From an uncultured Verrucomicrobiota bacterium (GTDB lineage: Bacteria > Verrucomicrobiota > Verrucomicrobiia > Verrucomicrobiales > Akkermansiaceae), in the NCBI GenBank assembly GCA_913063525.1, contig CAJXYV010000002.1, positions 1 through 52,178 on the forward strand: a DNA stretch of 52,178 nt. The letters run 5' to 3'. This document shows, in pieces, positions 33,671 through 50,974 of the stretch. A program made the translations under genes and the position numbers. Position 1 is the first letter of the stretch, and the number at the start of each line of letters is the position of its first letter. The notes under the pieces were generated by a model. That model was not told the origin of the DNA. It made no database searches and worked only from the letters and a program-made list of their open reading frames with translations.

Positions 33671-34465
33671 TTAGTTCTGCGCCGTCACGGGCGGAGCCGA
33701 CTTGGAGCTATTGTTCTTGAGCGCGGATTCGGTCTGGGTCTTGAACCAGGTGTCAAACTGCGTCTTGGGAATCACTTCCATGGAGCCGACCATATTGCCG
33801 TGGCCCTCGCCGCAGAGTTGAGCGCAGACGACAAAGGTTTCGAGGGCTTTCACGGGGGTGAACCACATCGGGATTTCACGACCAGGGATGGCGTCTTGTT
33901 GGACGCGCATCGGGACGATGCAGTAGTTGTGGATCACGTCCTTGGTGCCGATGTTGAGAACGGCGGGTTGGCTGACGGGAAGCTTGAGGATCGGGCTGGT
34001 GAAGTCGTCAAGCGCGTTGGGGTCGGTGTAGTCGATGCCGAGTTCGTTGGTACCGGAGATGAGGTTCGGGTCGCGGCGGCCGAACTTGTTGTCGGCACCG
34101 GGGTAGTGATAGGTCCAGCCAAACTGCCAACCGACAACGCGGACGCGGACGGGGTTGAGGTTTTGCACGGTTTTCCAGCTATCGACACGCTCGGCCCAGA
34201 GCGGGAAGGCAAATCCGAGTAGCAAAACGGCTTCTACGATAATGACGCCGACTTCCAAGTGACTGGAAAGATGGCTGCGCACGCCTTCGTAGGAGGCTTT
34301 CGGGTTATTCTTATGCCAGAAGCGGAAAATGCAGTAAAAGAAGAACAGCGTCCAGCCGACGAAAAGCGCGATCATGAACCAGTGCACCACATCGATCATG
34401 TGGTCGACTTGGCCGCCGTGCGCGGAAAAGTTTTCGGGTATGCCTAGAAACTTGGATGGACTCAT
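33671..34465 (-). CDS. coxB: Cytochrome c oxidase subunit II
   Basis: CuA motif CAQLCGEGHGNM; two N-terminal TM segments. Confidence 0.93.
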   Translation of the reverse strand: MSPSKFLGIPENFSAHGGQVDHMIDVVHWFMIALFVGWTLFFFYCIFRFWHKNNPKASYEGVRSHLSSHLEVGVIIVEAVLLLGFAFPLWAERVDSWKTVQNLNPVRVRVVGWQFGWTYHYPGADNKFGRRDPNLISGTNELGIDYTDPNALDDFTSPILKLPVSQPAVLNIGTKDVIHNYCIVPMRVQQDAIPGREIPMWFTPVKALETFVVCAQLCGEGHGNMVGSMEVIPKTQFDTWFKTQTESALKNNSSKSAPPVTAQN

Positions 34466-35345: not shown

Positions 35346-36959
35346 TTACATCAAATAGAGGATCGGGAAGACAAAGATCCAGACCAAGTCGACGAAGTGC
35401 CAAAACAAGCCGCCGATTTCGACGCGGTTGGCGAGCCACTCTGGGTTGCTGAGATACATTTTTCGGCCGAAGAACAGATAGTAAGCGAGGACAAGAGCAC
35501 CGCCGATGACGTGCAAGCCGTGAAGGCCAGTAATCGTGAAGTAAATAGCGTAGTAGGGATTCCACGCCGGAGTGAACTTCGACTCAAAGCCGACCTGTTC
35601 GCGAGGAACCGAGAAGCCAGGGAAAGTTTCGTCGCCGCGAGCTTCGTAGTTAGGACCAAAGAATTCCTCCTTGAAAGCGTCGGCTGGGGCGAGTTTGGCA
35701 CGGCCTTCGTCTTCGGCCTTTTCAGCAAAGTCTTTCCAGCCAATGCGATAGAGTTCCTTGTGGGTCGGGAAGCGGATGGCTTTGCCGTCCTTGTCAGCAC
35801 CATAGTCCTTGAGCAGTTGCGCTTTGAGCTTGGCGACCTCGCCTTGATGCCATTCCCACGCTTGTTTCGCAAAGGGGCTGTTCTTGATGAGCCACGAATT
35901 TTCGATCGCGACTTCGGGGTCGATCCCTTTCTCTTCGGCTTTCATGGCGAGGTGTTGGAAGTCGATCGCATCGACGTGGTGGAACACCATCGGGCTGTCC
36001 AGCAACTTGCCATCGATGACGGTGTCGTCGCGCAGGCGCGACTGGGTCGCGGCCGGTTTGATGTCGCGCGGATGAAAATCGAAGTGAGCAGAAGGATCGA
36101 CCGTGAAAGCCACGGTGGAGATCTCGCTGAGCAACTGAGGAGTGACGACGGCCATGTCGATATTCACGCCATCGGCGATCTGCCAGCCGCGTTTATCGGG
36201 ATTGGCGGCCTTGGCCTTTTTCCACTCGTCGCGCAGGGCAGCCGTGCGGATCACTCCGTTGTGGCTGCGAGCCGCGAGGTGGGTCTTTTGGATGCGATTG
36301 AGGAGTTCGATCGACAGCGGTTCGCCAGCCTTCGCGATCACTTCGGCCGCCTGGCCTTCACGAGTGATTGCCGAGACATCGGCCGTCAGGACGATTTTCG
36401 AATGACGGTGTTCGGCTTGGGTGAGGAGTTCCTCGACCCATGGCTTATGAAAGCGAACGGTGTTGAAAGTGAGCTTGGAGGTTTCGACGTTGATGAGGTT
36501 TTCCTCGATCTTGTTGCCCTTGTGATCGAGCACGGGCTTGTCGTCCTCTGTTTCATAGCCCAAGTGGCCTTCGATGACGGAATAGTCCTTGAGACGGAGT
36601 GCTTGGTGATGGAGTTTGACATTATATTCCACGCCCTTGAGGACCATGAAAATGAGCGCACAGAAAACCGTGATGCCCATGAAGATTTGGAACTTCCGCC
36701 AATCACGCAGCTTCAGGGATGCCCAGGCAAAAACCACGGTCACCGATGAACCGATGAGCACGAAGGTATTAATCAAACCTGGCAGCACAGGCAGGGTGCG
36801 CTCGGGCCACGGGAAGTCGGCACCGAGGCGCAGAAACACATAGGCCGAGAAGAAGCCGCCGAAGAGCATGACTTCGGAAGCCAGGAACAGCCAGATCGCG
36901 ATCTTCGAATTGAAGAGGCCGGTGTCCTTTCGGGGAGTGACGACGTAGGGAATTTCCAT
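35346..36959 (-). CDS. coxC: Cytochrome c oxidase subunit III with a large internal insertion
   Basis: IAIWLFLASEVMLFGGFFSAYVFLRL and YFTITGLHGLHVIGGALVLAYYL...GLFWHFVDLVWIFVFPILYLM flank about 340 aa of non-TM sequence. Confidence 0.88.
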   Translation of the reverse strand: MEIPYVVTPRKDTGLFNSKIAIWLFLASEVMLFGGFFSAYVFLRLGADFPWPERTLPVLPGLINTFVLIGSSVTVVFAWASLKLRDWRKFQIFMGITVFCALIFMVLKGVEYNVKLHHQALRLKDYSVIEGHLGYETEDDKPVLDHKGNKIEENLINVETSKLTFNTVRFHKPWVEELLTQAEHRHSKIVLTADVSAITREGQAAEVIAKAGEPLSIELLNRIQKTHLAARSHNGVIRTAALRDEWKKAKAANPDKRGWQIADGVNIDMAVVTPQLLSEISTVAFTVDPSAHFDFHPRDIKPAATQSRLRDDTVIDGKLLDSPMVFHHVDAIDFQHLAMKAEEKGIDPEVAIENSWLIKNSPFAKQAWEWHQGEVAKLKAQLLKDYGADKDGKAIRFPTHKELYRIGWKDFAEKAEDEGRAKLAPADAFKEEFFGPNYEARGDETFPGFSVPREQVGFESKFTPAWNPYYAIYFTITGLHGLHVIGGALVLAYYLFFGRKMYLSNPEWLANRVEIGGLFWHFVDLVWIFVFPILYLM

Positions 36960-37028: not shown

Positions 37029-38900
37029 TCAGTGCTTGTCTGGTGCCTCGAGGTGCTTGGGTTCGATCCACTGGGGAAGGAAATCCGAATCGCAATCCGG
37101 GCGGCTGTATTCGTAGGGGCCGCGATAGGTGACGGGCTCCACGAGGAAATTACCGTGGCCCGGAGGTGTTGGCGTTGCCCACTCGAGGGTGGTGGCGTCC
37201 CACGGATTGTCGTTTTCCACCTTTTTGCCAAACTTCCACGACGTGAAGAGATTGATGATGAAAAAGATTTGGAAAAAGGCCATCGTCCACGCCCCCATCG
37301 ACATGATGATGTTCATGTCAATGTGCTGAACAACGGTATTGCCGAAGATGTTCACGCTGTCTTGAGCCTTGGAGAGATAAGCATCGCCACCATTGTACCA
37401 ACGGCGATGGAAGCCCGCCATCCCTTGCACCAACATCGGGAAGAAAATGAGGTTCATGCAGATCAAGCTAGGCCAGAAGTGCAGGTGGTTGAGAGTTTTA
37501 CTCATGTAACGGCCGGTGATCTTCGGGTACCAGTGGAGGACACCTGCAAAAAACCCGAACAGAATCCCCGGAGCAACCACGTAGTGGAAGTGACCGATGA
37601 CATAGTAGGTATCGTGGAGGTGGAGATCCGCCAGATTGAAGGCCAACGGCAAGCCGGTGAGGCCGCCGATGCCGAACATCGGGATGAAGGCGCAGGCCCA
37701 CATCATCGGCGGAGTGAAGCGAATCGAACCGCCCCACAGCGAGATGAGCATAGCGGTAATAATTACCACCGATGGAACTGAGATGAGAACCGTAGTGGTT
37801 TGGAAGAAGGTAGAAACGGCGGCACCCATGCCGGTCATGTACATGTGGTGAGCCCAGACGACGAAGGAGAGGAACCCGAGAACCAGCACGGAGTAGACCA
37901 TCGACTTGTAGCCCCACAGCGGCTTGCGCGTGTTGGCTGGGATGATTTCACTCACACAAGCAAAGGCGGGCAGCAGCAGCACATAGACTTCCGGGTGACC
38001 GAGGAACCAGAACAAGTGTTGGAAGAGCAGCGGCGAGCCACCACCCGACAGATTGGCAAGACCCTCGGTCTTGGTGAACAGGCCGGATGGCATGAAGAAC
38101 GACGAATGTGCCACGCGGTCCATCAATTGCATGATGCCAGCCGCTTCGAGCGGCGGGAAGGCAAGCAAGAGAAGGAAACCCGTCACCAGCATCGACCAAA
38201 CGAAAAACGGCATCCGCATCCAGGTCATTCCGCGGACGCGGAGATTGATGATGGTGGTGATGAAATTCACCGACCCAAGGAGCGACGAGGTGATCAGCAG
38301 CACCAGTCCCAGCAGCCACTGGGTTTGCCCCGCCAGCCACTGGTTGACGATTTGGCCGTCGGCGAAACCGGCGAGCGGAGAGTAATTGGTCCAACCCGAC
38401 TTGGCGGAGCCCGACTCGAGGAAAAACGACGAACACATGATGATGCCCCCGAGGAAGTAAACCCAATAACTGGCCATGTTCAGGCGCGGAAACGCCATAT
38501 CCACCGCACCGATTTGCAGCGGTGTAACATAGTTACCGAAGGCACCGAAGCCCAGCGGCACAATCCCAAGGAACACCATGATCGTACCATGCATGGCACC
38601 AAACATGTTGTAAGTCTCCCCTGTCACCTTGCCGTCCTGCAACCAGCGCGCCTTCCAGCCGTCGGTGAAGACCCAGCTCATCCATTCAGGAAGCGGCTGA
38701 TGCGGAAAAGCGATACTCCAGCGCATCACCATCATCAGGTAGAAGCCGAAAGCGAGGAAACACATCGCGGTGATTCCGTACTGGATGCCGATCATTTTAT
38801 GATCGGTGGAGAAGACCCATTTCCGGAGAAACCCCGGATCGTGGTGATGATCTTCGTGGTGGGCGTCGTGCCCGGCAGGTGAGGTGGCGTGAGAGCTCAT
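37029..38900 (-). CDS. coxA: Cytochrome c oxidase subunit I (A-type), ligands intact
   Basis: MFGAMHGTIMVF; WFLGHPEVYVLLLP; VWAHHMYMTGM; YVIGHFHYVVAPG. Confidence 0.96.
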   Translation of the reverse strand: MSSHATSPAGHDAHHEDHHHDPGFLRKWVFSTDHKMIGIQYGITAMCFLAFGFYLMMVMRWSIAFPHQPLPEWMSWVFTDGWKARWLQDGKVTGETYNMFGAMHGTIMVFLGIVPLGFGAFGNYVTPLQIGAVDMAFPRLNMASYWVYFLGGIIMCSSFFLESGSAKSGWTNYSPLAGFADGQIVNQWLAGQTQWLLGLVLLITSSLLGSVNFITTIINLRVRGMTWMRMPFFVWSMLVTGFLLLLAFPPLEAAGIMQLMDRVAHSSFFMPSGLFTKTEGLANLSGGGSPLLFQHLFWFLGHPEVYVLLLPAFACVSEIIPANTRKPLWGYKSMVYSVLVLGFLSFVVWAHHMYMTGMGAAVSTFFQTTTVLISVPSVVIITAMLISLWGGSIRFTPPMMWACAFIPMFGIGGLTGLPLAFNLADLHLHDTYYVIGHFHYVVAPGILFGFFAGVLHWYPKITGRYMSKTLNHLHFWPSLICMNLIFFPMLVQGMAGFHRRWYNGGDAYLSKAQDSVNIFGNTVVQHIDMNIIMSMGAWTMAFFQIFFIINLFTSWKFGKKVENDNPWDATTLEWATPTPPGHGNFLVEPVTYRGPYEYSRPDCDSDFLPQWIEPKHLEAPDKH

Positions 38901-38934: not shown

Positions 38935-39699
38935 TCAGGGTGCCTTGGCAGGGGCGAGAGTGATAGGATCAAGGAGAGTCTTGGGATCGAGCTTTTCGCC
39001 CGGCAGGTCCTTGAGGTGATCGGCGGAGAGTTCTTCGGCGGTCACCGAGTTACCCGCGTTTTTGCGGGCTGCGGAAATCTCAATAGCCGCCTTTGCCATG
39101 TCGAGGGTGATCACGTCGCCCTTGGTATTGCCGAAACTGCTACGGACGTAGGTCATGATTCCAGCAAGGTCCTCAGGAGTCATACCAATTCCTTGTGGTG
39201 GCATGACACCATACGTGATGCCGTCATGCACAGGACCTTGGAGACCGTTGAGAATGATCATCGCAAAACGCTCGGTTTCGCCGTTAGGCCATGGTGTACC
39301 CGCCAGCGACGGGAAGGTCGAACCATTACCCTTGCCATCGGAACCGTGGCAACCGTTGCACTTGGCGGAATAGATTTTCGAGCCTTTGGCCATGTAGGCG
39401 GCAAGTGCTTCCTTTGGGAGCGGACCAGTGTCTTCGGCACCACCGGCAGGAGTTCTGACGTAATTTTCACGAAACAGAGTGCCATAGGAGAACCAATGCC
39501 CGGCATCGCCTAGAATCCCACCCGCGATCAGGAGAACCACGCCGCAAGCGACGAGAGCCCACAGCGAAATCGGCGCGATGCCGTTATCGACAATCCGCTT
39601 CTCGCGAGCACATGCGGCAGCATCGCGGACCGCAACACCGTGAGCTTCGGTCACATTGATCGATTCTTCTAGGTCTGGCTTTTCGTTAGGAAGAGACAT
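38935..39699 (-). CDS. Membrane-anchored monoheme cytochrome c
   Basis: CNGCHGSDGKGNG; N-terminal TM. Confidence 0.85.
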   Translation of the reverse strand: MSLPNEKPDLEESINVTEAHGVAVRDAAACAREKRIVDNGIAPISLWALVACGVVLLIAGGILGDAGHWFSYGTLFRENYVRTPAGGAEDTGPLPKEALAAYMAKGSKIYSAKCNGCHGSDGKGNGSTFPSLAGTPWPNGETERFAMIILNGLQGPVHDGITYGVMPPQGIGMTPEDLAGIMTYVRSSFGNTKGDVITLDMAKAAIEISAARKNAGNSVTAEELSADHLKDLPGEKLDPKTLLDPITLAPAKAP

Positions 39700-39723
39700 G
39701 TTTGAACGTAAGTGATAAGTAAA

Positions 39724-40437
39724 TTATTTCGCGGAGCCCTTGGCCTTAGCAGGCGAGAAGTTTAGGACTGCGGGAACCGCTTGGTCTTTTTTAAGCGAGA
39801 GAAGGTAGGAAACAAGGGCCTTTGCTTCTGGAGTTGGAACTAACTCAGTGCCTTCGTCGGCATTTCCGAACGGCATGGCATCTTCCGAGGGATTTCCCGT
39901 GATCTTGCGCTTGGTGAACATGAAGTGGTGGGGCGGACAGGTGGACTGCCAAAGCTGAGGATCGAGGCGTGGATTGTAGAGGTGAGTGAAGAGCCAGATG
40001 GATGGGTCTTTACCCGCAGCGTAATTAGACTCCACGCGGCGGCCGAGATTGGACAAATCAGGACCCATGCGGGAGACACCGATCTGGGCGAACTTTTCGC
40101 CGAAGAAGTCGTAGGCGTTGGTTTCGCGCCGGGTGTCGCCGCGATCAGGATCTGCCTTCAAGCCGCCCCAATCTGGGCGATAAAGGTCATTGCCCGCATA
40201 AGTCGGGCGAACGACCTGCGTGTGGCAAAGATAACAGCCGTTTTCGGCATAGACTCTGGCACCATCGGCCACCCGCCCCGTGCGTTTCGGGAAGAAGATG
40301 CCGGTGGTCCCATCTGTTGCTTCTGATAGTTGGATCGGCGCCAGATTGCGCATGGTGATAAATGGCACCACGATGACCGCAAGCCACGCAACGCCAAAGC
40401 TGGCTGATAGTCCGAGAATGAATGTACGAAAGCTCAT
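39724..40437 (-). CDS. cbb3-type oxidase subunit II (CcoO)-like cytochrome c
   Basis: GARVYAENGCYLCHTQVVRPTYAGNDLYRPDWGG; GPDLSNLGRR; DAMPFG. Confidence 0.88.
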   Translation of the reverse strand: MSFRTFILGLSASFGVAWLAVIVVPFITMRNLAPIQLSEATDGTTGIFFPKRTGRVADGARVYAENGCYLCHTQVVRPTYAGNDLYRPDWGGLKADPDRGDTRRETNAYDFFGEKFAQIGVSRMGPDLSNLGRRVESNYAAGKDPSIWLFTHLYNPRLDPQLWQSTCPPHHFMFTKRKITGNPSEDAMPFGNADEGTELVPTPEAKALVSYLLSLKKDQAVPAVLNFSPAKAKGSAK

Positions 40438-40464
40438 GAAGTTTGAGATCTGAAATTTATCACC

Positions 40465-41970
40465 TTAGTGGGCGCTGATGTATCCGGGGCCAGCATTGTC
40501 GATATCGCCTTCCTCGCCGTGCGGGCTGGAAGCATGTCCGTGCGCGGCATCGAAGAGAGTCGGATGTTGACTGCGCCGCCCGAGGCGCAACCACATCAAG
40601 GCGAGGTGAATGAAAAAGAAGATATTGGAGAATAGGATGAAGCACCAGGCGATCGTTGTTCCAACCGCGTATGGGTAGGCGCGGCTGGCGGCGTTCTGCC
40701 ATGGTTGTTGCCAGTCTTCCTGACCGATCCCCTGCTCGAATCCGCCGAAAATGGCGAACAATGCGACTGCCATGATTCCATAAACCGAGAACAAGAAGTG
40801 AATCTTGATCAGGCGGCGGGAAAGCCACTCGCGGCGTGTCACCCGCGGCACGATAAAGTAAACCGCACCGAACATGACAAAACTGAAGAAGCCATAAAGG
40901 GCGAGAATTTCAAACCCATAACCGGAGAGTGAGAACTGCGTGAGCGGCAGGGTCGAATCTGGCAAGTTCAACACAACCGCGGAGCATGCCAGAAGAATCA
41001 GGCCGCCAATCCCTGCAAGGGTGAAACGAAGGGATGGGCTGCTGGCCAAAATCTCTGGCGACGAGATCGCGGTGCGCAGAAGATTGATGGCGGCGGAAAT
41101 CGTCGGCACAAAAAGCATGACGGTGGCTGCAGCACCGACGTATGGCAGGAAGTAAGGGATCGGCGCACCTGCCAGCTTCTGCATGCCCGCCCAAGGAGCG
41201 ATAACGGCGAGTGACCAGAATCCGAGTTTTGCCAGCGAATAGCTATAAACGGGCTGGCCGGTGATTTTGGGTGCGAGGTAATAGGCAGTTCCCAGCGCCA
41301 CGGGTGTGAAGAAGAGGAACGTGAGGGCCGACTTATACCAGGCATTGATACCGGCAGCCATCACCGGATGGCCCGGCAGGCAGTGAAGCAAGGTGTTTGC
41401 GGTGATGAAGATCCAAGGGAACCAAACGATGGCCGCCAGTAGATACCACTGTGAGATATAGACGTGGCCCTCGGGCCGAACGCGGAATTGGATGAATGAC
41501 CAGATGACAATGGCGAAGTAACTGGCGAGCAAAACCGGCCAGGCAAATGCAGGGAATTCCATCCATGGCATTCCCGTGCTCGAGCCCGAAAGGATTCCCA
41601 CGAGACCCAAGAAGACTCCGAGATTCCATACATGACCCGCGACTAGAATCAATCCGGCAGCAGTGCATTCTTTGCGCGATAGCCGGGCCATCATCCAGAT
41701 GATCACCGCAAACGCTGCCTGAAATCCCCAGCCATAGATAAAGGCGTTGATGTGAGCCGGAAAGACGCGGCCATAGGTCAGCCATGAGCAGCACGACAGA
41801 AAGCCGGGTGCGTGAGCCTTCGCCGAGGAGATAATGCCCAGAACGATTGAAACCGCGAGCCAGGCGGCACCGCTGGTCAGGAAAAACATCACGGGGTGAC
41901 GTAGCGAACGGTCGATCCCCGCGCGAAGCAAGGCGTCCTGTTCAGTGGTAGTTGAGATGGCGGAAGACAT
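40465..41970 (-). CDS. cbb3-type oxidase subunit I (CcoN) homologue lacking active-site ligands
   Basis: CcoN-like TM pattern (YGRVFPAHINAFIYGWG, LAPKITGQPVYSYSLAKLGFWSL, FGAVYFIVPRVTRREWL) but no CuB/heme b3 histidines. Confidence 0.85.
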   Translation of the reverse strand: MSSAISTTTEQDALLRAGIDRSLRHPVMFFLTSGAAWLAVSIVLGIISSAKAHAPGFLSCCSWLTYGRVFPAHINAFIYGWGFQAAFAVIIWMMARLSRKECTAAGLILVAGHVWNLGVFLGLVGILSGSSTGMPWMEFPAFAWPVLLASYFAIVIWSFIQFRVRPEGHVYISQWYLLAAIVWFPWIFITANTLLHCLPGHPVMAAGINAWYKSALTFLFFTPVALGTAYYLAPKITGQPVYSYSLAKLGFWSLAVIAPWAGMQKLAGAPIPYFLPYVGAAATVMLFVPTISAAINLLRTAISSPEILASSPSLRFTLAGIGGLILLACSAVVLNLPDSTLPLTQFSLSGYGFEILALYGFFSFVMFGAVYFIVPRVTRREWLSRRLIKIHFLFSVYGIMAVALFAIFGGFEQGIGQEDWQQPWQNAASRAYPYAVGTTIAWCFILFSNIFFFIHLALMWLRLGRRSQHPTLFDAAHGHASSPHGEEGDIDNAGPGYISAH

Positions 41971-41993
41971 CGGCTTTGAAGATAAAATCGAGA

Positions 41994-42749
41994 TTAAGGT
42001 TTGGTGAGTTCCGCAGCAGAAACTTGAGGTTTACCCACCTCACTGCGAAGCGCGGCGACTTGCTCGGGCTTGACGGCCGAAGCCTTATTGCCAAAACTAT
42101 TGCGCACGTAGGTAAGGACACCGGCGATTTGCTCGTCCGTCTGATAGGCAAGCGCCGCCATGCCGCCCGGCATGTTGTATTCCGTCCCCTTGACCGAAAT
42201 CGGACCTTGGAGACCCCGGAGTTGGATACGAATGAGATTGGAAATCGGCCCCTTGACCCATTCCGAACCGGCAAGCGGCGGTGCAATCGGACTACCTTCA
42301 CCATTTTGGCCGTGGCAGGCAGCGCAGACGAGGAATTGAGTTTTGCCGATCGCCATGACAGCAGGATCAATCGGAGCCTCAGCCGCATCTGAAACATCGA
42401 TCGCCTTGGTATCAACGGCTGGCGCTGATGCGAGTTTTTTGGCAGTATCGGAACCCGGCACGAGCTGGGCAGGCTGCTCAACCGCTAGTGGTTTGGTAGC
42501 AGCAAGCTGCTTGGCAAGTTTCGGAATAGTGGCATCAAGGACTTCAGGCGAGATGTTAGCTGCCTGAGCCGCATCGATTTTTGCCTTGGTGATGTAGCGT
42601 GACTTGGCAGCTGCATCTTCCATAGTTGTTGGATCGGAGTGATTGAATAACCAAATCACTGCGAGCATCACAGCAAAGATGAAGAAGGTGCCAAGAGCCC
42701 ACCAGAAAGTAGTGAAGCGGATGATCAGATTGTCGCGGGATGGGTCCAT
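41994..42749 (-). CDS. Membrane-anchored monoheme cytochrome c (ATG at 42749)
   Basis: CAACHGQNGEGSPIAPPLAGSEWVKG; N-terminal TM; ORF-track start 42929 overlaps the upstream gene. Confidence 0.85.
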   Translation of the reverse strand: MDPSRDNLIIRFTTFWWALGTFFIFAVMLAVIWLFNHSDPTTMEDAAAKSRYITKAKIDAAQAANISPEVLDATIPKLAKQLAATKPLAVEQPAQLVPGSDTAKKLASAPAVDTKAIDVSDAAEAPIDPAVMAIGKTQFLVCAACHGQNGEGSPIAPPLAGSEWVKGPISNLIRIQLRGLQGPISVKGTEYNMPGGMAALAYQTDEQIAGVLTYVRNSFGNKASAVKPEQVAALRSEVGKPQVSAAELTKP

Positions 42750-42765: not shown

Positions 42766-44076
42766 TCAGTTAGAAACGTTTGCGGACTCGAGAATGCGAG
42801 GGTCGCGATTCGGATAGAGTGAATGCTGACCCAAGGCGCGGATGAGGATAAAGAGGAATGCCGCACCGATGGTGACAAATGCGAGGATGTCACCCCAGAA
42901 GGCTCCGGGAATCGCCACTTGGATATCACCGAATACTTCCGGCTTGATATGACCCAAAGAAACGCCGCGCTCAGGAATCGTGATCAGGTAATGATCGAGG
43001 GCGTGCATGCAGAGCGTGTAAACGGCGACGATCGAAAGCATCTTCGGATTCTTCTTCAACCACGCTTGGAGCAGGACGACAAAAGGAACGACGAAGTGAC
43101 CGAAGACGAGGAAGTACATGGCAATGTTCCAGTTGCCCGTATTGCGAATGGAGAAGTAGGAGGTTTCCTCGGTGATGTTCGCATACCAGATAAGGAAAAA
43201 CTGGGAGAAGGCGATGTAGGCCCAGAAGGTGGTGAATGCGAACATCAGCTTGCCCATGATGTGGAAGTGTTCCGAGGTCGTCACATGCTTGAGATGACCC
43301 ATGCTCTTCAGCCAGGTGCAAACAAGAACGATGACCGCCATTGAGTTCAGCGCGGTGCCGGCAAACAGATAGACACCCCACATCGTCGAGAACCACTTGT
43401 AATCGAGGCCCATCAGGAAATCGAAGCCGGTGAATGTGATCGTGAGTGCAAAAATGATCAGAGGATAATTGGAGTGGTAGCGCGCCGTGAGCAGGCGGGC
43501 TGTTCCGGGATTAGGATCGGTATCCTGAGCCGTCGAGAGCTTGCGAAGGCCATAGATCACCGCACTGAGACCGATGCCATAGAAGGCGAAACGACCGTAC
43601 CAGAATGGCAGATTCATGAACCAATGCTTGTTCGATAGAAGATGCTCGTGGTGATGGAGATACTCCTTCACCTCGCCTGGAGCGGCGCGGTGGATATTCA
43701 TCCATTCGTAGAGATAAACCTGAACCTGTGGGAATAGCAGCGGCAAGCCGAACAGAAAGACCCACGGAAAGGTCGAGCCCAGGTTTTCAAAGGTGCGACG
43801 GACGGAGGTGCCCCAACTTGAATTGGAGACGTTGTGCAACAAAGTCCAGAAAACGCCACCGATCGAAAGCGTCAGGAAATAATAAAAGGCAAACAACCAG
43901 GAATAGGCGAATGGCCCACGAAGTTTTTCGGAAGCAAAAAACAACAGGTAGATGCTGGCGACGCTGCCTAGCACGGCCACGATCAAGGCCATGCGTTTCA
44001 CTTTCGAAACCTTGGAGGAGTCGAGGTGATCGCCGTTGATCGCGATGTCTGCGGATGTGACGTGGTGGTGAGCCAT
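42766..44076 (-). CDS. actF: Alternative Complex III, ActF-like quinol:cytochrome c oxidoreductase subunit
   Basis: Multi-TM protein in ACIII gene order; ATG at 44076 (MAHHHVTSADIAINGDHL). Confidence 0.8.
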   Translation of the reverse strand: MAHHHVTSADIAINGDHLDSSKVSKVKRMALIVAVLGSVASIYLLFFASEKLRGPFAYSWLFAFYYFLTLSIGGVFWTLLHNVSNSSWGTSVRRTFENLGSTFPWVFLFGLPLLFPQVQVYLYEWMNIHRAAPGEVKEYLHHHEHLLSNKHWFMNLPFWYGRFAFYGIGLSAVIYGLRKLSTAQDTDPNPGTARLLTARYHSNYPLIIFALTITFTGFDFLMGLDYKWFSTMWGVYLFAGTALNSMAVIVLVCTWLKSMGHLKHVTTSEHFHIMGKLMFAFTTFWAYIAFSQFFLIWYANITEETSYFSIRNTGNWNIAMYFLVFGHFVVPFVVLLQAWLKKNPKMLSIVAVYTLCMHALDHYLITIPERGVSLGHIKPEVFGDIQVAIPGAFWGDILAFVTIGAAFLFILIRALGQHSLYPNRDPRILESANVSN

Positions 44077-44098
44077 TACTATAAAGTCAGTAAAAGAG

Positions 44099-44749
44099 TT
44101 ATTGGGCCTTGGTTTGTGCCTCTTTGGCAGCCTGCAGCGTTCGGACATAGGCGACAATCGCCCAACGGTCGCGAACGGAGATGTTGTAGCCGTAGCCACT
44201 CATCATGCCCTTACCGTTAGTGATGGTTTCAAAGATGCGACCATCGGGGTAGGACGCAGATTTGAAGTTATTCATGTGGAAATTGGCGATGCCGGGTACG
44301 CCGTACAGACCGGTGATCCCTTGCCCGTCTCCCGACTTGCCGTGGCAGACGGCGCAATAAATCCCAAAGCGCTCTTTGCCGCGCTGAATCAAGGATGAAG
44401 CGCTTTCCTCGGTGAGTTGCAATTCCTGTGGCATGCCATTGCCGAAATAATCACCGACGTGACCCGTGTAGTAATAACCGGTCTGGCCGCCGAATTCGTA
44501 TTCGGGAATACCGCCAATGGATTGAGCCCCCGCTTCATTGAAGCCGCGTGGCTGGGTTTGGCCCACCGGAAGTCGGCTGCCGTGGCCGTCTGCAAAGAAC
44601 GCGTCAGGCTTCTGGGCGCGGATCTTGTCCTGGGTATCCATGTCCGGAAAAATCTGGATTGGAGGCTTGGAAAACTTCTGGCCGCGGACTCCGAAGACTC
44701 CGACGACGAGCAGCGCAATCAGTGCGTAAGCGAGGAAAAAGTAGCGCAT
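44099..44749 (-). CDS. actE: Alternative Complex III, ActE-like cytochrome c
   Basis: CAVCHGKSGDGQGITGLYGVPGIANF. Confidence 0.85.
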   Translation of the reverse strand: MRYFFLAYALIALLVVGVFGVRGQKFSKPPIQIFPDMDTQDKIRAQKPDAFFADGHGSRLPVGQTQPRGFNEAGAQSIGGIPEYEFGGQTGYYYTGHVGDYFGNGMPQELQLTEESASSLIQRGKERFGIYCAVCHGKSGDGQGITGLYGVPGIANFHMNNFKSASYPDGRIFETITNGKGMMSGYGYNISVRDRWAIVAYVRTLQAAKEAQTKAQ

Positions 44750-44799
44750 GAGAATTTAACGGAAAAGGTTAAGAGCAATGAGAGTCATCGTTCGGATCA

Positions 44800-45354
44800 T
44801 CAATCTTCTTCTTCGACAAGTTCGATGTTAGCCCCGCCGATTTCGGCGAGCAGGTCGCGCGTCCCATTGGGCGTAAATTTCGGATCACGGGCCTCGATCG
44901 CGATAAAAAATCCATCGTCCGTCGCCTTGCGGAACTGGTCACTTGCAAACAAGGGGTGATTGAGGCGAGGAAGTTGAATCAGGCCCAATAGACCGAAGAG
45001 AACCGTAAATCCGGAAAACAGGATCGTCAGCTCGAACATGATCGGGAAAAACGCAGGAACCGTGAATATGTTCACGGGCTTCGACTGCACCACCGTCGGA
45101 TAGATCACCACTTGGGTCGTGTAGGCGAGCGCAAAGGCCGTCGCCGTTCCGGTCATACCTCCAAAGAACACAAACCAAGGAAGGATCGAGCGTTTCATGC
45201 CCATCGCCCCGTCGAGGCCGTGAATCGGGTATGGAGAATAACAATCCCATTTCCTGAAGCCGGCGTCGCGGATTTTTTCAGCGCCCTTGTAAAGAGCGGA
45301 TGCGCTCTTGAACTCGGCGAGGTAGCCGTAAACGCGTTTGCGGGTGGTGCTCAC
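44800..45354 (-). CDS. actD: Alternative Complex III, ActD-like (DUF3341)
   Basis: YGYLAEFKSASALYKGAEKIRDAGFRKWDCYSPYPIHGLDGAMG. Confidence 0.88.
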   Translation of the reverse strand: MSTTRKRVYGYLAEFKSASALYKGAEKIRDAGFRKWDCYSPYPIHGLDGAMGMKRSILPWFVFFGGMTGTATAFALAYTTQVVIYPTVVQSKPVNIFTVPAFFPIMFELTILFSGFTVLFGLLGLIQLPRLNHPLFASDQFRKATDDGFFIAIEARDPKFTPNGTRDLLAEIGGANIELVEEED

Positions 45355-45385
45355 TGGTGTAAAAATTTAGAGTTAGGCGTTAAAG

Positions 45386-46861
45386 TTATTTGGAGGAAAC
45401 CAATTCCTTTTGATAGGCGGCTTCGATCACAACACCGTGGTCTGCATGCTCTTGAAGATCGTCGTGGTGTGGATCTGACTCCAGAAGAGTCCATTTGACC
45501 TCGGCGATGTTGATGCATGGCAGGAAGCGAAGGAACATCAAGAACAGAGCAAGGAATAAGCCAATCGTGCCGACAAAGGTCATCAGCTCGACACCACTCG
45601 GCGAATAGGTCTTCCAGTCACCAGGAAGGAACATCCGGGCCAAGGTCGTGCAAATGATGACGAAGCGCTCAAACCACATCCCGACGTTGACGCACATCGC
45701 AACAACCATGATCACCCAGAGGTTTTCGCGGCATGCTTTGAACCAGAAAACCTGAGGCGAAAGCACATTGAGGCTCATCATCGCTGCGTAGGCCCACCAG
45801 TATGGACCCGCGATCCGGAATTTGAAGGCGTCCATTTCATAGATGGCGCCCGAGTAGAAGGCGACAAAAAGCTCCATCAAGTAGGCATATCCGACGATCG
45901 TACCTGTAAGGAGGATGATCTTGGCCATGTTGTCGATGTGCTTCATGGTGATCAAATCCTGCAAGCCATAGATGAAACGGGCAGGCACCATGATGGTGAG
46001 CACCATGGCGAAACCACCGAAGATGGCACCGGCTACGAAGTAAGGCGGGAAGATCGTGGTGTGCCAACCGGGAACCACCGAGGTTGCAAAGTCGAACGAG
46101 ACGACCGAGTGAACCGAGAGCACCAACGGTGTGGAAAGCGCCGCAAGGAGCAAGTACGCCATTTCATAGTGACTCCACTGGCGGTTCCCCCCGCGCCAGC
46201 CGAGTGAAAAGATACCATAAAGAATCTTACGAATGCCTGGCTTGCAACGATCGCGGATGGTGGCGAGATCGGGAACCATACCGAGATACCAGAAGATCAG
46301 AGAAATCGTGAAGTAGGTGGAAACGGCAAACACGTCCCACAGCAGCGGCGACTTGAAGTTCTGCCAAATCGCATTGGCGTTCGGCACCGGTGCCAGAAAC
46401 CATGCAAACCAGACCCGACCGACGTGGAAGGCAGGGAAAATCCCGGCGCAGATCACGGCGAAAATCGTCATCGCCTCTGCCGCGCGGTTGATGGAAGTCC
46501 GCCAGTTTTGGCGGGTTAGGAATAGCACCGCCGAGATCAGCGTCCCCGCGTGGCCGATACCGATCCAAAACACGAAGTTGGTAATATCAAAACCCCAGAA
46601 GACCCGGTTCGACATCCCCCAGACACCCACACCCGTGGAGACCAGATAGGTCAAACCACCACCGACGCCGATGAGAGCAATCAGTGCGGATGGAATGAAA
46701 AGCAACCACCACAAAAAGGGTTGCCGATTTTCCAAAACACCGCAAATGCGTTCGGTGATCCAATTGTATGAACGGCCGCTGAGGATGAGCTTTTCGCGCT
46801 CAAGCACCGGGATTTTCACTCCGGTGTGGGTCTCAGGTGCCGTATGGGTGGTAGAAGCCAT
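45386..46861 (-). CDS. actC: Alternative Complex III, ActC-like NrfD/PsrC membrane subunit
   Basis: [44 protein letters not shown]. Confidence 0.92.
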
Positions 46862-46897
46862 GTTAAATGAAAAATTGGAAGCTCAGATAAAAACAGA

Positions 46898-49800
46898 TCA
46901 GGCCATGTGAATGGTCGCCTTGCCGACAAATTTCGCGTCCGGCATGGCCGGATTCGGGTTCTTGACGCGCGCCAGATAACTGGTGCGCGGCCGGGTGCCG
47001 ATGTAGTTGAGGAGATCGTAGTTACGGTCGATGCGCTTGCTGCGACCGAGTGCGGATTTCTCTTCGTCGAGAAGGTTGCCGAAGGTGATGGCGCCGGCGG
47101 GGCAAGCGTCTTGGCAAGCGGTCTTCACCGAATCCACCGGGATGCGGAGGGTGTTGACGTTGACCTGCATTTCGGTGGAAGCCTTGCCAGCGACGAGAGC
47201 CTCTTGCTTTTGACCCTGCTTCTGACGAATCACCGAATCCTTGAGACGTTGCACACAGTAGGTGCACTTCTCCATCACACCGCGCATGCGGACCGTGACG
47301 TTCGGATTCTTCTGAAGATGTGGGGCTTCGCCCACTTGTTTCTCACCAAACGGCCCCTTATAAAGGTTATGGGCGATCAGCGGGTTGCGCTTATTATAGT
47401 CGAAATAGTTGAAGCGGCGCGCCTTGTACGGGCAGTTGTTTGCACAATAGCGCGTTCCGATGCAACGGTTATAGGCCATTGCATTGAGGCCGTCTTCCGT
47501 GTGAATCGTTGCATTGACTGGGCAAACGGTCTCGCAGGGCGCGGACTCGCACTGGACGCAGGCCACCGGTTGGGGAACCATTTCCGGATTGCCTTCGTCG
47601 AAGGTATTGTCCTTTTGCGCGGCGAAGTAGCGATCCATCCGGATCCAGTGCATTTCGCGGCCCATGGCGACCTGTCTCTTGCCAACAATCGGAATATTGT
47701 TCTCCGATTGGCAGGCAACGAGGCAGGAGTTACAACCCATGCAAGAGGAGAGATCGATCGACATACCCCACTGATGGAGAGGATCGCTGAGTAGCGGCTT
47801 GCCGGCACGGTCTTTAGGTTGGTAAAGCGAGACCGTCGGCGGCGCGTGGGAATCGTTGCCTTGTTTCGGCACATTCGCGAGTTGGGCGGCGAACGAACCT
47901 TTTTCCTCGTCGCCAAGAGTCGAAACCTCGCGGGCCAGGGCGCGGCCATACATCGCGTTGTGCTCTTGGGTGAGGGCGACCGAGTAGCGGAGAGTCGTCG
48001 GAGCCACCTTCGCACCGGTGGCGAAATAGGCCGTGGCAGCCGTACGGAGTGGATAGGCATTGAAACCGCGGTTCACACCGACGAGGCCGACGTGAGATTC
48101 GTTTTTCGGTCCACGCTTGAGTTCGTCGTGCTTATCAAAGCCTTGGCCGTAACCGAGCGGGATGACAATCGTGTTTTCAGCTTGGCCGAAGGAAACGAGA
48201 ATCGGGATTTCCAGTGTCTGACCGTTAACCGCCAGGCGAATCATCGGCGACGTGCGGTTTTGGGCCTCGTCGTCAGGAGAACGCGATGCGAAGTCCGTTT
48301 CGAGCTGGATAATTTGGTCGTAAATCCCCAGCTCCTTGGCGGTGCTCGGGGCGACAAGTGCGACGTTGTCCCATGTGAGCTTGGAAATCGGATCGGGAGC
48401 CTCTTGCAGCCAGCCATTATCAATCCAACGACCGTCGAAGATCGACGAGTCGGTTGCGAAAATCACCTCGAGCGAATCCTTGGTCGGCGGTGTCGCAACG
48501 ATCGGCGCAGACAGGTCGCCGCGCAGTTTCGGGTTAGCGATCGGATAGGAAGAACCCGCGAGGAAACCATCGCGAAGCAGCTTTTTCCAAGCCGTATCCC
48601 CTGCCCCGCCGAGTGTGGAGAAAGTCGCGCGGACGGCGGTATAGGCGGGTGATGCCGCGCCTTTTTCGCCTTCGCCATTAAGAAGCTTTCCGTCGTTAGA
48701 AAGCAAGGCGAGCAGCAACTCCAACTCCGAAACACAATCCTTGTAGAGCGGCAGAATCATCGGCTGCACTACCGTGTAGGTACCACTCGCGCTGCGAGCA
48801 TCCGACCATGATTCTAAATAGTGGGCGGCAGGAAGGTGCCATGTCGAAGCATGAGCCGTCGCATCCGTGCGGGTACCGAAGTGGATGCTCGTCTTAAGTT
48901 TGGCATATGACTCGCCGAACTTGAGATCGGCCGGAGCATCATAAAGCGGATTGGAAGGTGTAAGAACAATGAGGGTATCGACCGCCTTCGCGTCGATGTC
49001 ATTTTTCAGCGCAGCGAGATTACCGAGGCCCTTCGTTCCAGTTTGGACAGCGAGAAGCGGTTTGCCCTCTCCGATGTTGCCGAGCGACTGGTTGATCGCA
49101 TGGGCGAGCAAGTGAAGCGCCAGCGACTGGCGGGAACCTGCGAGAACCAAGGATTTTCCAGCGTTCGCCTTCAGGTCATCCACGAGGCCATTAACCCATG
49201 CAACATGCTTCGGATCGGAAAGTTCGGGAGAGACGATTGCCACACCGGCTTTCACGCCGAGTCCGCGAGCGATTTGCGCAGCGACGGCGGTCACCTGGCT
49301 AGGAGAAACCCGCAAGCGGTGATCCGCCATGCCACCGGTGAGGGTGAACGCAGCTTCCACCGAGTAGAGACGGTTCATTTTCGACGCGTCCGGCTTACCC
49401 TCGTAGGATTTGCCCTCGGGCTTACGGCGGTCGAAAAACGCGGTGACCGGTCCTTGCGAATCGGTGCCGGCAAAGTCGCAGTCGAGTGAAACGATGCGAT
49501 CCGCTTTGGCGAAGTTAGCGACCAGTTTCACCCCCTCGCCCAAGGCCACGGCGGACGATTCGCCGGTGAGAGCTTCATATTGATAGAATTTGGCAGAAGA
49601 GAACTTTGTGGCCAACTCCTGTGTCAGGCGGGCGCGGGTCGGGCTATCATCGGCACCGAAAAGGAATCCAACCTTGGCCGACTTATCCGTCGCGATGGTG
49701 GCCAGCGCCGCCTCGAAATCAGCGCGTGCTGCCGCGTTTCCGCCTTTGAGAATTTTGCGCGAGCGCGATGGCGAGTAGAGATCTAACACCGATGCTTGGG

Positions 49801-50230
49801 CAAAGGCATCCGTTCCTTCGGAATCCGGGTGAAGGTGGTTAGGAGCCAGCTTGGTCGGGCGGCCTTCAAAGGTCGTCACCACCAGCGGCGTCGCGCCGTG
49901 GGCGCGTGGCATCGCAGAAGCATAGTAGGTCGCCTTGCCTGGGATCACCCATTCCGGTGCCTTGGTGTAAGGGACGATGTAGGATTCAGGGCGGCGGCAC
50001 GCTGCCATGCCAAAGCCGGCGAGAGCCGTCGATGCGCCCATCAACTTCAAGAACGAACGGCGCGATGTCTCGGCATCTTCCTCGTTGGCCATCTCCGCAG
50101 CGCCTTGCGGGAACTCGCGGTCCAGCCACTGGCGGAAGTCGGCGGTGTCTTCCAGTTGACCCACACTGCGCCAGGCGACGGTGGTTTCGCCGGCGGGAAC
50201 CTCGGGGTGATGCAAAATGCGCTTGCTCAT
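46898..50230 (-). CDS. actB: Alternative Complex III, ActB-like molybdopterin-oxidoreductase/ferredoxin fusion
   Basis: Twin-arginine RRSFLKLMG; C-terminal CMGCNSCLVACQSENN, CVQCESAPCETVCPVNA, CIGTRYCANNCPYKARRFN. Confidence 0.93.
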   Translation of the reverse strand: MSKRILHHPEVPAGETTVAWRSVGQLEDTADFRQWLDREFPQGAAEMANEEDAETSRRSFLKLMGASTALAGFGMAACRRPESYIVPYTKAPEWVIPGKATYYASAMPRAHGATPLVVTTFEGRPTKLAPNHLHPDSEGTDAFAQASVLDLYSPSRSRKILKGGNAAARADFEAALATIATDKSAKVGFLFGADDSPTRARLTQELATKFSSAKFYQYEALTGESSAVALGEGVKLVANFAKADRIVSLDCDFAGTDSQGPVTAFFDRRKPEGKSYEGKPDASKMNRLYSVEAAFTLTGGMADHRLRVSPSQVTAVAAQIARGLGVKAGVAIVSPELSDPKHVAWVNGLVDDLKANAGKSLVLAGSRQSLALHLLAHAINQSLGNIGEGKPLLAVQTGTKGLGNLAALKNDIDAKAVDTLIVLTPSNPLYDAPADLKFGESYAKLKTSIHFGTRTDATAHASTWHLPAAHYLESWSDARSASGTYTVVQPMILPLYKDCVSELELLLALLSNDGKLLNGEGEKGAASPAYTAVRATFSTLGGAGDTAWKKLLRDGFLAGSSYPIANPKLRGDLSAPIVATPPTKDSLEVIFATDSSIFDGRWIDNGWLQEAPDPISKLTWDNVALVAPSTAKELGIYDQIIQLETDFASRSPDDEAQNRTSPMIRLAVNGQTLEIPILVSFGQAENTIVIPLGYGQGFDKHDELKRGPKNESHVGLVGVNRGFNAYPLRTAATAYFATGAKVAPTTLRYSVALTQEHNAMYGRALAREVSTLGDEEKGSFAAQLANVPKQGNDSHAPPTVSLYQPKDRAGKPLLSDPLHQWGMSIDLSSCMGCNSCLVACQSENNIPIVGKRQVAMGREMHWIRMDRYFAAQKDNTFDEGNPEMVPQPVACVQCESAPCETVCPVNATIHTEDGLNAMAYNRCIGTRYCANNCPYKARRFNYFDYNKRNPLIAHNLYKGPFGEKQVGEAPHLQKNPNVTVRMRGVMEKCTYCVQRLKDSVIRQKQGQKQEALVAGKASTEMQVNVNTLRIPVDSVKTACQDACPAGAITFGNLLDEEKSALGRSKRIDRNYDLLNYIGTRPRTSYLARVKNPNPAMPDAKFVGKATIHMA

Positions 50231-50275
50231 GTTAGACTGCGGAAAGGATGAAAGTTAGAAAAAAGGGCGAACGGA

Positions 50276-50974
50276 TTAACGGTGGCAGGTGGCGCAAGTC
50301 GCCTTCGGGTTGACCATAAACTGCTCTTTCAACTTCAGACCCAGCTCCTCGGTCGTCTTCACGCCGAGTTGGGGGTTGTTCGAGATAAAGGTCTCCGCGT
50401 TGTAGGCGAAGTTGTAAACCTCCTCCAGCGGACGCAGGTTCTTCTCCGGCGCACGGTGGCAGTCCAAGCACCAACCCATCGAGTGGCTTTCCGCCTGATA
50501 GATCACCTCCATCTTGTTCACATTACCGTGGCAACTCTGGCAGGAGATCCCGCGATTGACGTGCGCGGAGTGGTTAAAATAAACGTAATCGGGTGCCTTG
50601 TGCACCCGCACCCATTCGATCGGCTTGCCGTCGTAGCCGGGATAAGTGACATCCATCGACTTGTGCAGCGGCGCCAGTTTCGGGCTGTCGCGCTGGACGT
50701 GCTGGTGGCAGTTCCAACAGGTGCTCCCCGTCGGCACGTTCGAATGGCCGGTCACATCCACAAACGAGTGGCAATAGCGGCAGTCCAGACCGACTTGATC
50801 GACGTGGATTTTATGGGAAAACGGAATCGGTTGTGCTGGCTGGTAGCCTACCACCTGCGCCTTTGGCGTCGCATAATAGGCAAAGGCAAGAGCCACACCC
50901 GCGGCTGTGGCTCCGGCACAGACAGCGATTTTGAGCGGCAGGAGATTGGACCAGCGAGGAAAAATATTTGCCAT
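50276..50974 (-). CDS. actA: Alternative Complex III, ActA-like pentaheme cytochrome c
   Basis: Five CXXCH: CRYCH, CWNCH, CQSCH, CLDCH, CATCH. Confidence 0.93.
   Translation of the reverse strand: MANIFPRWSNLLPLKIAVCAGATAAGVALAFAYYATPKAQVVGYQPAQPIPFSHKIHVDQVGLDCRYCHSFVDVTGHSNVPTGSTCWNCHQHVQRDSPKLAPLHKSMDVTYPGYDGKPIEWVRVHKAPDYVYFNHSAHVNRGISCQSCHGNVNKMEVIYQAESHSMGWCLDCHRAPEKNLRPLEEVYNFAYNAETFISNNPQLGVKTTEELGLKLKEQFMVNPKATCATCHR

Follow-up and report, generated by a model that had tools for sequence, protein, structure and literature searches.

A ligand-less CcoN homologue in a cytochrome cassette next to alternative complex III across the Verrucomicrobiae

Gene content of the ACIII locus

This study concerns a cassette of genes resembling those of cbb3-type (C-family) cytochrome oxidases, which lies beside the genes for alternative complex III (ACIII, a quinol:cytochrome c oxidoreductase) in an uncultured bacterium of the Akkermansiaceae (Verrucomicrobiota; assembly GCA_913063525.1). 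The window, by which we mean the whole stretch of DNA analysed, comprises positions 1 to 52,178 of contig CAJXYV010000002.1. Throughout the class Verrucomicrobiae this cassette goes with ACIII as a constant accessory, and in many lineages, that of the window included, its CcoN-like member has lost the ligands of its active site.

All genes of the locus lie on the minus strand, in the order actABCDEF, a cytochrome c (CAACH), CcoN-like, CcoO-like (CYLCH), a further cytochrome c (CNGCH), coxA, coxC, a small protein and coxB. The order from actABCDEF to coxA had been given in the original prediction for this DNA, made from the sequence alone, and is confirmed by gene coordinates and domain matches in the window:

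42766-50974, minus strand: actABCDEF, encoding ACIII; six genes, conserved order class-wide
50276-50974, minus strand: actA, five CXXCH motifs
46898-50230, minus strand: actB
45386-46861, minus strand: actC
44800-45354, minus strand: actD (Pfam ActD, 5e-59)
44099-44749, minus strand: actE, one CXXCH motif
42766-44199, minus strand: actF, identified by similarity between loci and synteny
41994-42749, minus strand: membrane-anchored cytochrome c (CAACH) between actF and the CcoN-like gene (PF00034, 1e-10)
40465-41970, minus strand: CcoN-like protein of 501 amino acids, cbb3-type subunit I fold, active-site ligands gone (PF00115, 2e-39)
39724-40437, minus strand: CcoO-like membrane-anchored mono-heme cytochrome c (CYLCH; PF02433 FixO, 1e-08)
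38935-39699, minus strand: CcoP-like membrane-anchored mono-heme cytochrome c (CNGCH, Met ligand; PF00034, 1e-12)
37029-38900, minus strand: coxA, A-type oxidase subunit I, all ligands (TIGR02891, 2e-164; ligand motifs present)
35346-36959, minus strand: coxC, oxidase subunit III with a large insertion (PF00510, 4e-18, split match)
33671-34465, minus strand: coxB, oxidase subunit II, CuA motif CAQLCGEGHGNM, no cytochrome c domain (PF00116, 2e-10)

The window thus holds a recognizable ACIII gene cluster, with all six act genes, a multiheme ActA and a mono-heme cytochrome in ActE. Pfam and NCBIfam scans of the window's ActF protein gave no usable match.

A CcoN-like protein without a canonical catalytic site

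The CcoN-like protein is a true homologue of COX1/CcoN, matching not only PF00115 but also the CcoN of P. stutzeri (3mk7; phmmer, 3e-22). Its AlphaFold2 model (predicted local distance difference test 89, predicted template modelling score 0.90) finds its best matches in the PDB among cbb3 CcoN structures (3mk7/6xkw), with template modelling (TM) scores of 0.83-0.89. We read its residues by alignment to the intact CcoN that this genome also encodes, naming the sites from established cbb3 structures. One of the six ligand histidines is left, the sites reading H73 (kept), S214, Q264, K265, F353 and I355, and the position of the cross-link tyrosine is A258. The protein is left without a canonical heme b3 or CuB site and retains a single heme b ligand, the first (H73). 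The ligand-less CcoN that had been predicted is therefore borne out, five of the six metal-ligand histidines and the cross-link tyrosine being gone. Compared with a functional cbb3 oxidase, fold and homology are present while the full set of six histidines and the tyrosine is not, and the protein scores only 104.6 bits against the CcoN equivalog model TIGR00780, under its cut-off of 583 bits.

All ACIII-linked homologues read from Akkermansiaceae show the same ligand loss, and close relatives are all full-length with identical replacements, which rules out an assembly or frameshift artefact. Nor is this the genome's sole CcoN, as a genuine, intact CcoNO fusion (L002) is encoded on another contig. 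Among nine genus relatives the ratio of non-synonymous to synonymous substitution rates (dN/dS) of the CcoN-like gene is 0.046-0.094, so that the gene is under strong purifying selection, and despite long divergence the open frame is full-length in nearly all genomes. In Chthoniobacter flavus Ellin428 (L293:14613-16092) the gene is found in two overlapping frames, either through sequencing error or as a true frameshift.

Placement of the cassette across the class

CcoN matches occur in 57 of 59 relatives and in 308 of 385 members of the class, counts that include genuine CcoN. A search for related loci was keyed on ActC, since no stretch was conserved throughout a mixed alignment of CcoN. About 115 loci around ACIII-type CcoN were read; the counts given here depend on this choice of loci, 20 further divergent ones, several of them weak matches, having been left out. 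ActF lies upstream of CcoN in all 83 ligand-less loci and in 27 of 30 intact ones, with a CcoO-like gene and a cytochrome c gene downstream in nearly all loci read. This ActF-CcoN-CcoO-cytochrome c order was found across dozens of families, and also in named loci. Absence of the module from relatives, the outcome of a synteny survey that the original prediction had named as telling against it, did not occur: the module stands next to ACIII throughout the class.

The oxidase genes are less constant neighbours. Where at least 6 kb could be read downstream, coxA was adjacent in 27 of 71 ligand-less loci versus four of 27 intact ones (Fisher p 0.03). A strict dependence of the cassette on an adjacent oxidase is accordingly rejected, 44 of the 71 ligand-less loci having no adjacent coxA. 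With ActF constant and coxA mostly not adjacent, the constant partner is ACIII rather than the oxidase, and the predicted placement 'exactly between' ACIII and a functional oxidase describes the window but is no general rule.

As far as we searched, the cassette is specific to Verrucomicrobiae. In ACIII loci of Phycisphaerae, another planctomycete, Blastocatellia, Bryobacterales and a record labelled Proteobacteria, coxBAC comes straight after the ACIII genes and the cassette is missing. No CcoN match at all was obtained in 20 listed genomes (e.g. G063, G079) of g18, a genus in the window's own family. Genome G608, from the window's genus, has both a ligand-less cassette adjoining ACIII (L174) and a second, fully liganded CcoN-CcoO-cytochrome c cassette with no ACIII nearby (L164).

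Cytochromes of the cassette

The CXXCH motif of the CcoO-like protein is kept in 113 of 113 loci, and the downstream CcoP-like cytochrome keeps both its CXXCH and its axial Met in 112 of 112. The CcoO-like CYLCH motif in the window, described as intact in the original prediction, is indeed present, but the sixth-ligand Met (about residue 167) is replaced by Cys, so that the CXXCH and axial Met of a functional CcoO are not found together. Whereas the axial Met is retained in all 38 intact loci, it is retained in 92 of 169 ligand-less ones. Cys takes its place in 47 of 47 ligand-less sequences of family f1, and also in f83, one f94 and f114, in each case in ligand-less loci only. A Cys here is predicted to ligate the heme, giving a His/Cys site. 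Because of this change at its heme site, the CcoO-like protein is probably not the main wire in the window lineage, and the two Met-ligated cytochromes c would be better candidates for the carrier.

An extra cytochrome c domain between ActF and CcoN, as in the window, occurs in 15 ligand-less loci, one of them the nos-operon locus (L066) described below, and in no intact ones. It is only a partial substitute for the CcoO heme, since the CcoO Met is still there in some loci with the extra cytochrome. The slot between actF and CcoN in most other loci (L063, L073, L076 and others) is taken by a conserved, small, heme-less protein with a single transmembrane segment and a motif like WIDKxxxxxxIPIxxAMEL. 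This protein is a possible ActG analogue; it is apparently linked to ACIII, and in Akkermansiaceae a cytochrome c domain has apparently taken its place or become fused to it.

The partner oxidase

CoxA in the window carries all heme and CuB ligands, as predicted, and CoxB the CuA motif of an A-type (aa3) oxidase. The partner had been called a caa3-type oxidase, and this we could not uphold: CoxB has no CXXCH motif and no cytochrome match in a Pfam scan, and without a fused cytochrome c domain the oxidase is aa3, not caa3. CoxB has a cytochrome domain in six of six ACIII-Cox loci without the cassette, as against none of 40 with it, while ActA has its usual five hemes in nearly all loci read, the window included. 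An A-type coxA is present elsewhere in all 41 ligand-less genomes that lack an adjacent one; among the genomes with intact CcoN, 24 of 31 have an A-type coxA and seven have none (7/31 versus 0/41, Fisher p 0.0018).

Two ligand states and the history of loss

Ligand state is bimodal, with 31 ACIII-type cassettes having five or six of the histidines plus the tyrosine and 85 having three histidines or fewer, mostly none or one. Both states are present in families f7, f9, f15, f83 and f87, and even within a single genus (g42). The 'non-catalytic CcoN/CcoO pair' of the original prediction thus fits the window's CcoN but not the module in general, since an intact CcoN often occupies the same slot. 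In L190, from an otherwise intact lineage, CcoN has five of the six histidines, the CuB His207 site being Arg; this may be an intermediate of ligand loss.

How often the ligands were lost is answered differently by different genes. On the one hand, a quick tree of all CcoN sequences, with the ligand columns removed, unites the ligand-less ones in one clade (92 in the Shimodaira-Hasegawa-like approximate likelihood ratio test), as does a tree of the f9/f7/f83 subset (100/100), and approximately unbiased tests reject genus g42 and several mixed clades of the same family as groups, although f15+f19 and the f7 pair are not rejected. These results favour a history with one or a few ligand losses, after which ligand-less CcoN replaced intact CcoN in situ in many operons, a history compatible with either function of the cassette and one that we regard as possible but doubtful. 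On the other hand, the flanks on both sides disagree with it: the ActB+C tree needs 16 ligand-state changes, at least 14 of them on well-supported branches, and the CcoO+cytochrome c tree needs 13, at least eight on such branches. In a more careful tree, that of the f15/f19/f10/f94/f116 subset, the count is four changes, and not one of its 200 bootstraps gets by with a single change. Several ligand-less CcoN are, moreover, closest in sequence to the intact CcoN of their own family. At diagnostic sites, that is, positions away from the pockets that separate intact CcoN of different families, f15 and two f9 ligand-less rows favour their own family above the ligand-less background (p 0.0005 to 0.014). 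The result for f83 is marginal, and f7, f87 and four other f9 rows do not favour their own family. Finally, ligand-less CcoN branches are two to five times longer than intact ones, which invites long-branch attraction. The gene trees conflict on single versus repeated loss. Taken together, these results make more than one loss of the ligands probable, with a minimum of two to four events and perhaps as many as eight to 16 if the flanking genes track the history of CcoN.

The 'cbb3 oxidase' of verrucomicrobial methanotrophs

Family f8 has pmoA-type genes in all five genomes tested. One of the loci read (L238) belongs to Methylacidiphilum sp. Yel; its ACIII-linked CcoN is ligand-less, and the ligands are gone in all methanotroph ACIII loci read. 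The COX1 homologues of these five genomes comprise two of A-type, one or two of B-type, one that is NorB-like by motif, and the ligand-less protein; no genuine CcoN was found among them. In papers on Methylacidiphilum and Opitutaceae, the same locus with the same gene order as the window's cassette has been called a cbb3 oxidase (PMC6688271, PMC8498564, PMC11102522), a cbb3 type is listed among the oxidases of SolV (PMC10205796), and the locus has been tied to high O2 affinity (PMC6688271). There it is treated as functional, whereas the methanotroph versions read here are ligand-less; family f9, probably Opitutaceae, has both versions. On these readings, the published ACIII-adjacent 'cbb3 oxidase' of verrucomicrobial methanotrophs appears not to be an oxidase. 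If so, high O2 affinity in these organisms must stem from A- or B-type enzymes, and annotation by homology only will go on scoring the CcoN-like protein as a high-affinity oxidase. For the cassette, the transcriptome paper on SolV (PMC3404531) yielded no expression data. One methanotroph locus (L066:10436-17740) has a nos cluster (a nosZ-type propeller and NosD) between ActF and the CcoN-like gene; a nos cluster inside the ACIII cluster has been reported from M. caldifontis IT6 (PMC11102522).

What the cassette might do

Because CoxB carries a cytochrome domain where the cassette is missing and lacks one where it is present, we lean towards a role in which the cassette provides, in trans, the cytochrome that stands between ACIII and the aa3 oxidase, the dead CcoN serving as a scaffold. 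Homology, synteny and the intact versions in the same slot show this accessory module of ACIII to derive from a working cbb3-type oxidase inserted into the ACIII operon. In the ligand-less lineages CcoN has lost the ligands of heme b3, CuB and heme b and would survive as a membrane scaffold, what was kept being the membrane-anchored cytochrome c set, chiefly the CcoP-like cytochrome. Its complementary distribution suggests that the cassette cytochrome takes electrons from ActE and passes them to CuA of the aa3 oxidase, doing in trans the job of the CoxB-fused cytochrome c domain of caa3 systems. In Akkermansiaceae, an extra cytochrome c was added upstream and the CcoO-like heme changed into the predicted His/Cys site, and from that site change the likely carriers would be the CcoP-like and the extra cytochrome. 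ACIII, module and oxidase, whose genes are linked, may be physically associated. The electron bridge or scaffold envisaged in the original prediction fits the kept c-heme sites and a CoxB without cytochrome; its caa3 partner does not fit. We put at about even odds the fuller account, in which a C-family oxidase, taken up into the ACIII operon, lost its catalytic function in several independent events and is now a non-catalytic, cytochrome-holding ACIII subunit replacing the caa3 cytochrome domain, verrucomicrobial methanotrophs thus being without a C-type (cbb3) oxidase.

Several observations weigh against supply in trans. The CoxB contrast is confounded with phylogeny, the cassette loci all belonging to one class and the six others to other phyla, and the tests of association with the oxidase are uncorrected for shared ancestry. 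In most ligand-less loci no oxidase genes are adjacent, and a bridge dedicated to a single oxidase is therefore not the general case. The axial Met of the CcoO-like protein is gone in about 45% of ligand-less loci, which runs counter to CcoO as the wire and would also suit a purely structural part, in which dead CcoN (with CcoO) stabilizes or helps assemble ACIII, its sole constant neighbour, and the cytochromes of the module pass few electrons on to the oxidase. A parallel is offered by the Acetobacteraceae, whose COX1 and bc1 subunits without ligands have been proposed to play a structural role (PMC10715153). We nevertheless consider structure without electron flow unlikely, given the invariant heme site of the CcoP-like cytochrome, the gain of an extra cytochrome in 15 ligand-less loci and a CoxB that never has its own cytochrome where the module is present.

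The loci without adjacent coxA, the nos operon (nosZ, nosD) between actF and the CcoN-like gene of one methanotroph and the M. caldifontis report would also suit an ACIII-bound cytochrome hub serving several acceptors, such as soluble cytochromes, other oxidases and nitrous oxide reductase. In the window lineage, however, coxA is directly next and CoxB is without its own cytochrome, and we think a general outlet of this kind rather improbable. Sensing of O2, nitric oxide or redox state by the altered CcoN/CcoO, or binding of another cofactor, might be read into the CcoO Met-to-Cys change, with its fixation in f1 and its recurrence in f83, f94 and f114; but the cassette encodes neither a sensor domain nor a regulator, the Met persists in many ligand-less lineages, and the replaced CcoN sites differ in residue between families, unlike a conserved new site, so that we hold new chemistry to be very improbable. 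That the gene is a decaying relic or pseudogene carried in an essential operon, as the loss of all catalytic ligands might suggest, has virtually no probability in our view, being refuted by the dN/dS values and at odds with the full-length frame in nearly all genomes.

Comparison with known systems

With the cbb3 oxidase CcoNOP the window's cassette shares an N-O-P-like set and order of subunits and the fold, and intact relatives in the ACIII slot have all six histidines and the tyrosine. The window's version differs in that its catalytic site is gone, it lies in an ACIII operon and its P-like cytochrome is mono-heme. As in the ACIII-caa3/aa3 supercomplexes of Rhodothermus marinus and Flavobacterium johnsoniae, ACIII genes are followed by oxidase genes. 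In those supercomplexes the place between ActE and CuA is taken by a cytochrome c domain, that of CoxB linking ACIII to the oxidase in R. marinus and an extra ActA domain doing so in F. johnsoniae (PMC5928083); in the window, both CoxB and ActA are without an extra cytochrome domain, and the operon instead has separate membrane cytochromes and a dead CcoN. The deranged COX1-like/bc1 proteins of the Acetobacteraceae have likewise lost metal ligands while the gene was retained, for a proposed structural reason (PMC10715153). The gene there is COX1-like, linked to ctaB and known from a single family, whereas here a C-type CcoN is affected class-wide, always with ACIII, and the c-heme sites of its partners are kept. 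The Verrucomicrobiae would have a pseudo-enzyme in the core respiratory chain, a metal-stripped catalytic subunit fixed class-wide, whose intact same-slot relatives allow direct comparison. It makes testable how electrons pass from ACIII to an oxidase where a cytochrome is built into neither of the two.

CoxC of the window is 537 amino acids long, with a big insertion between its two Pfam matches, and CoxC of the methanotroph loci is 263-290 amino acids long; in the F. johnsoniae supercomplex the contact with ACIII is made by subunit III (PMC8361435).

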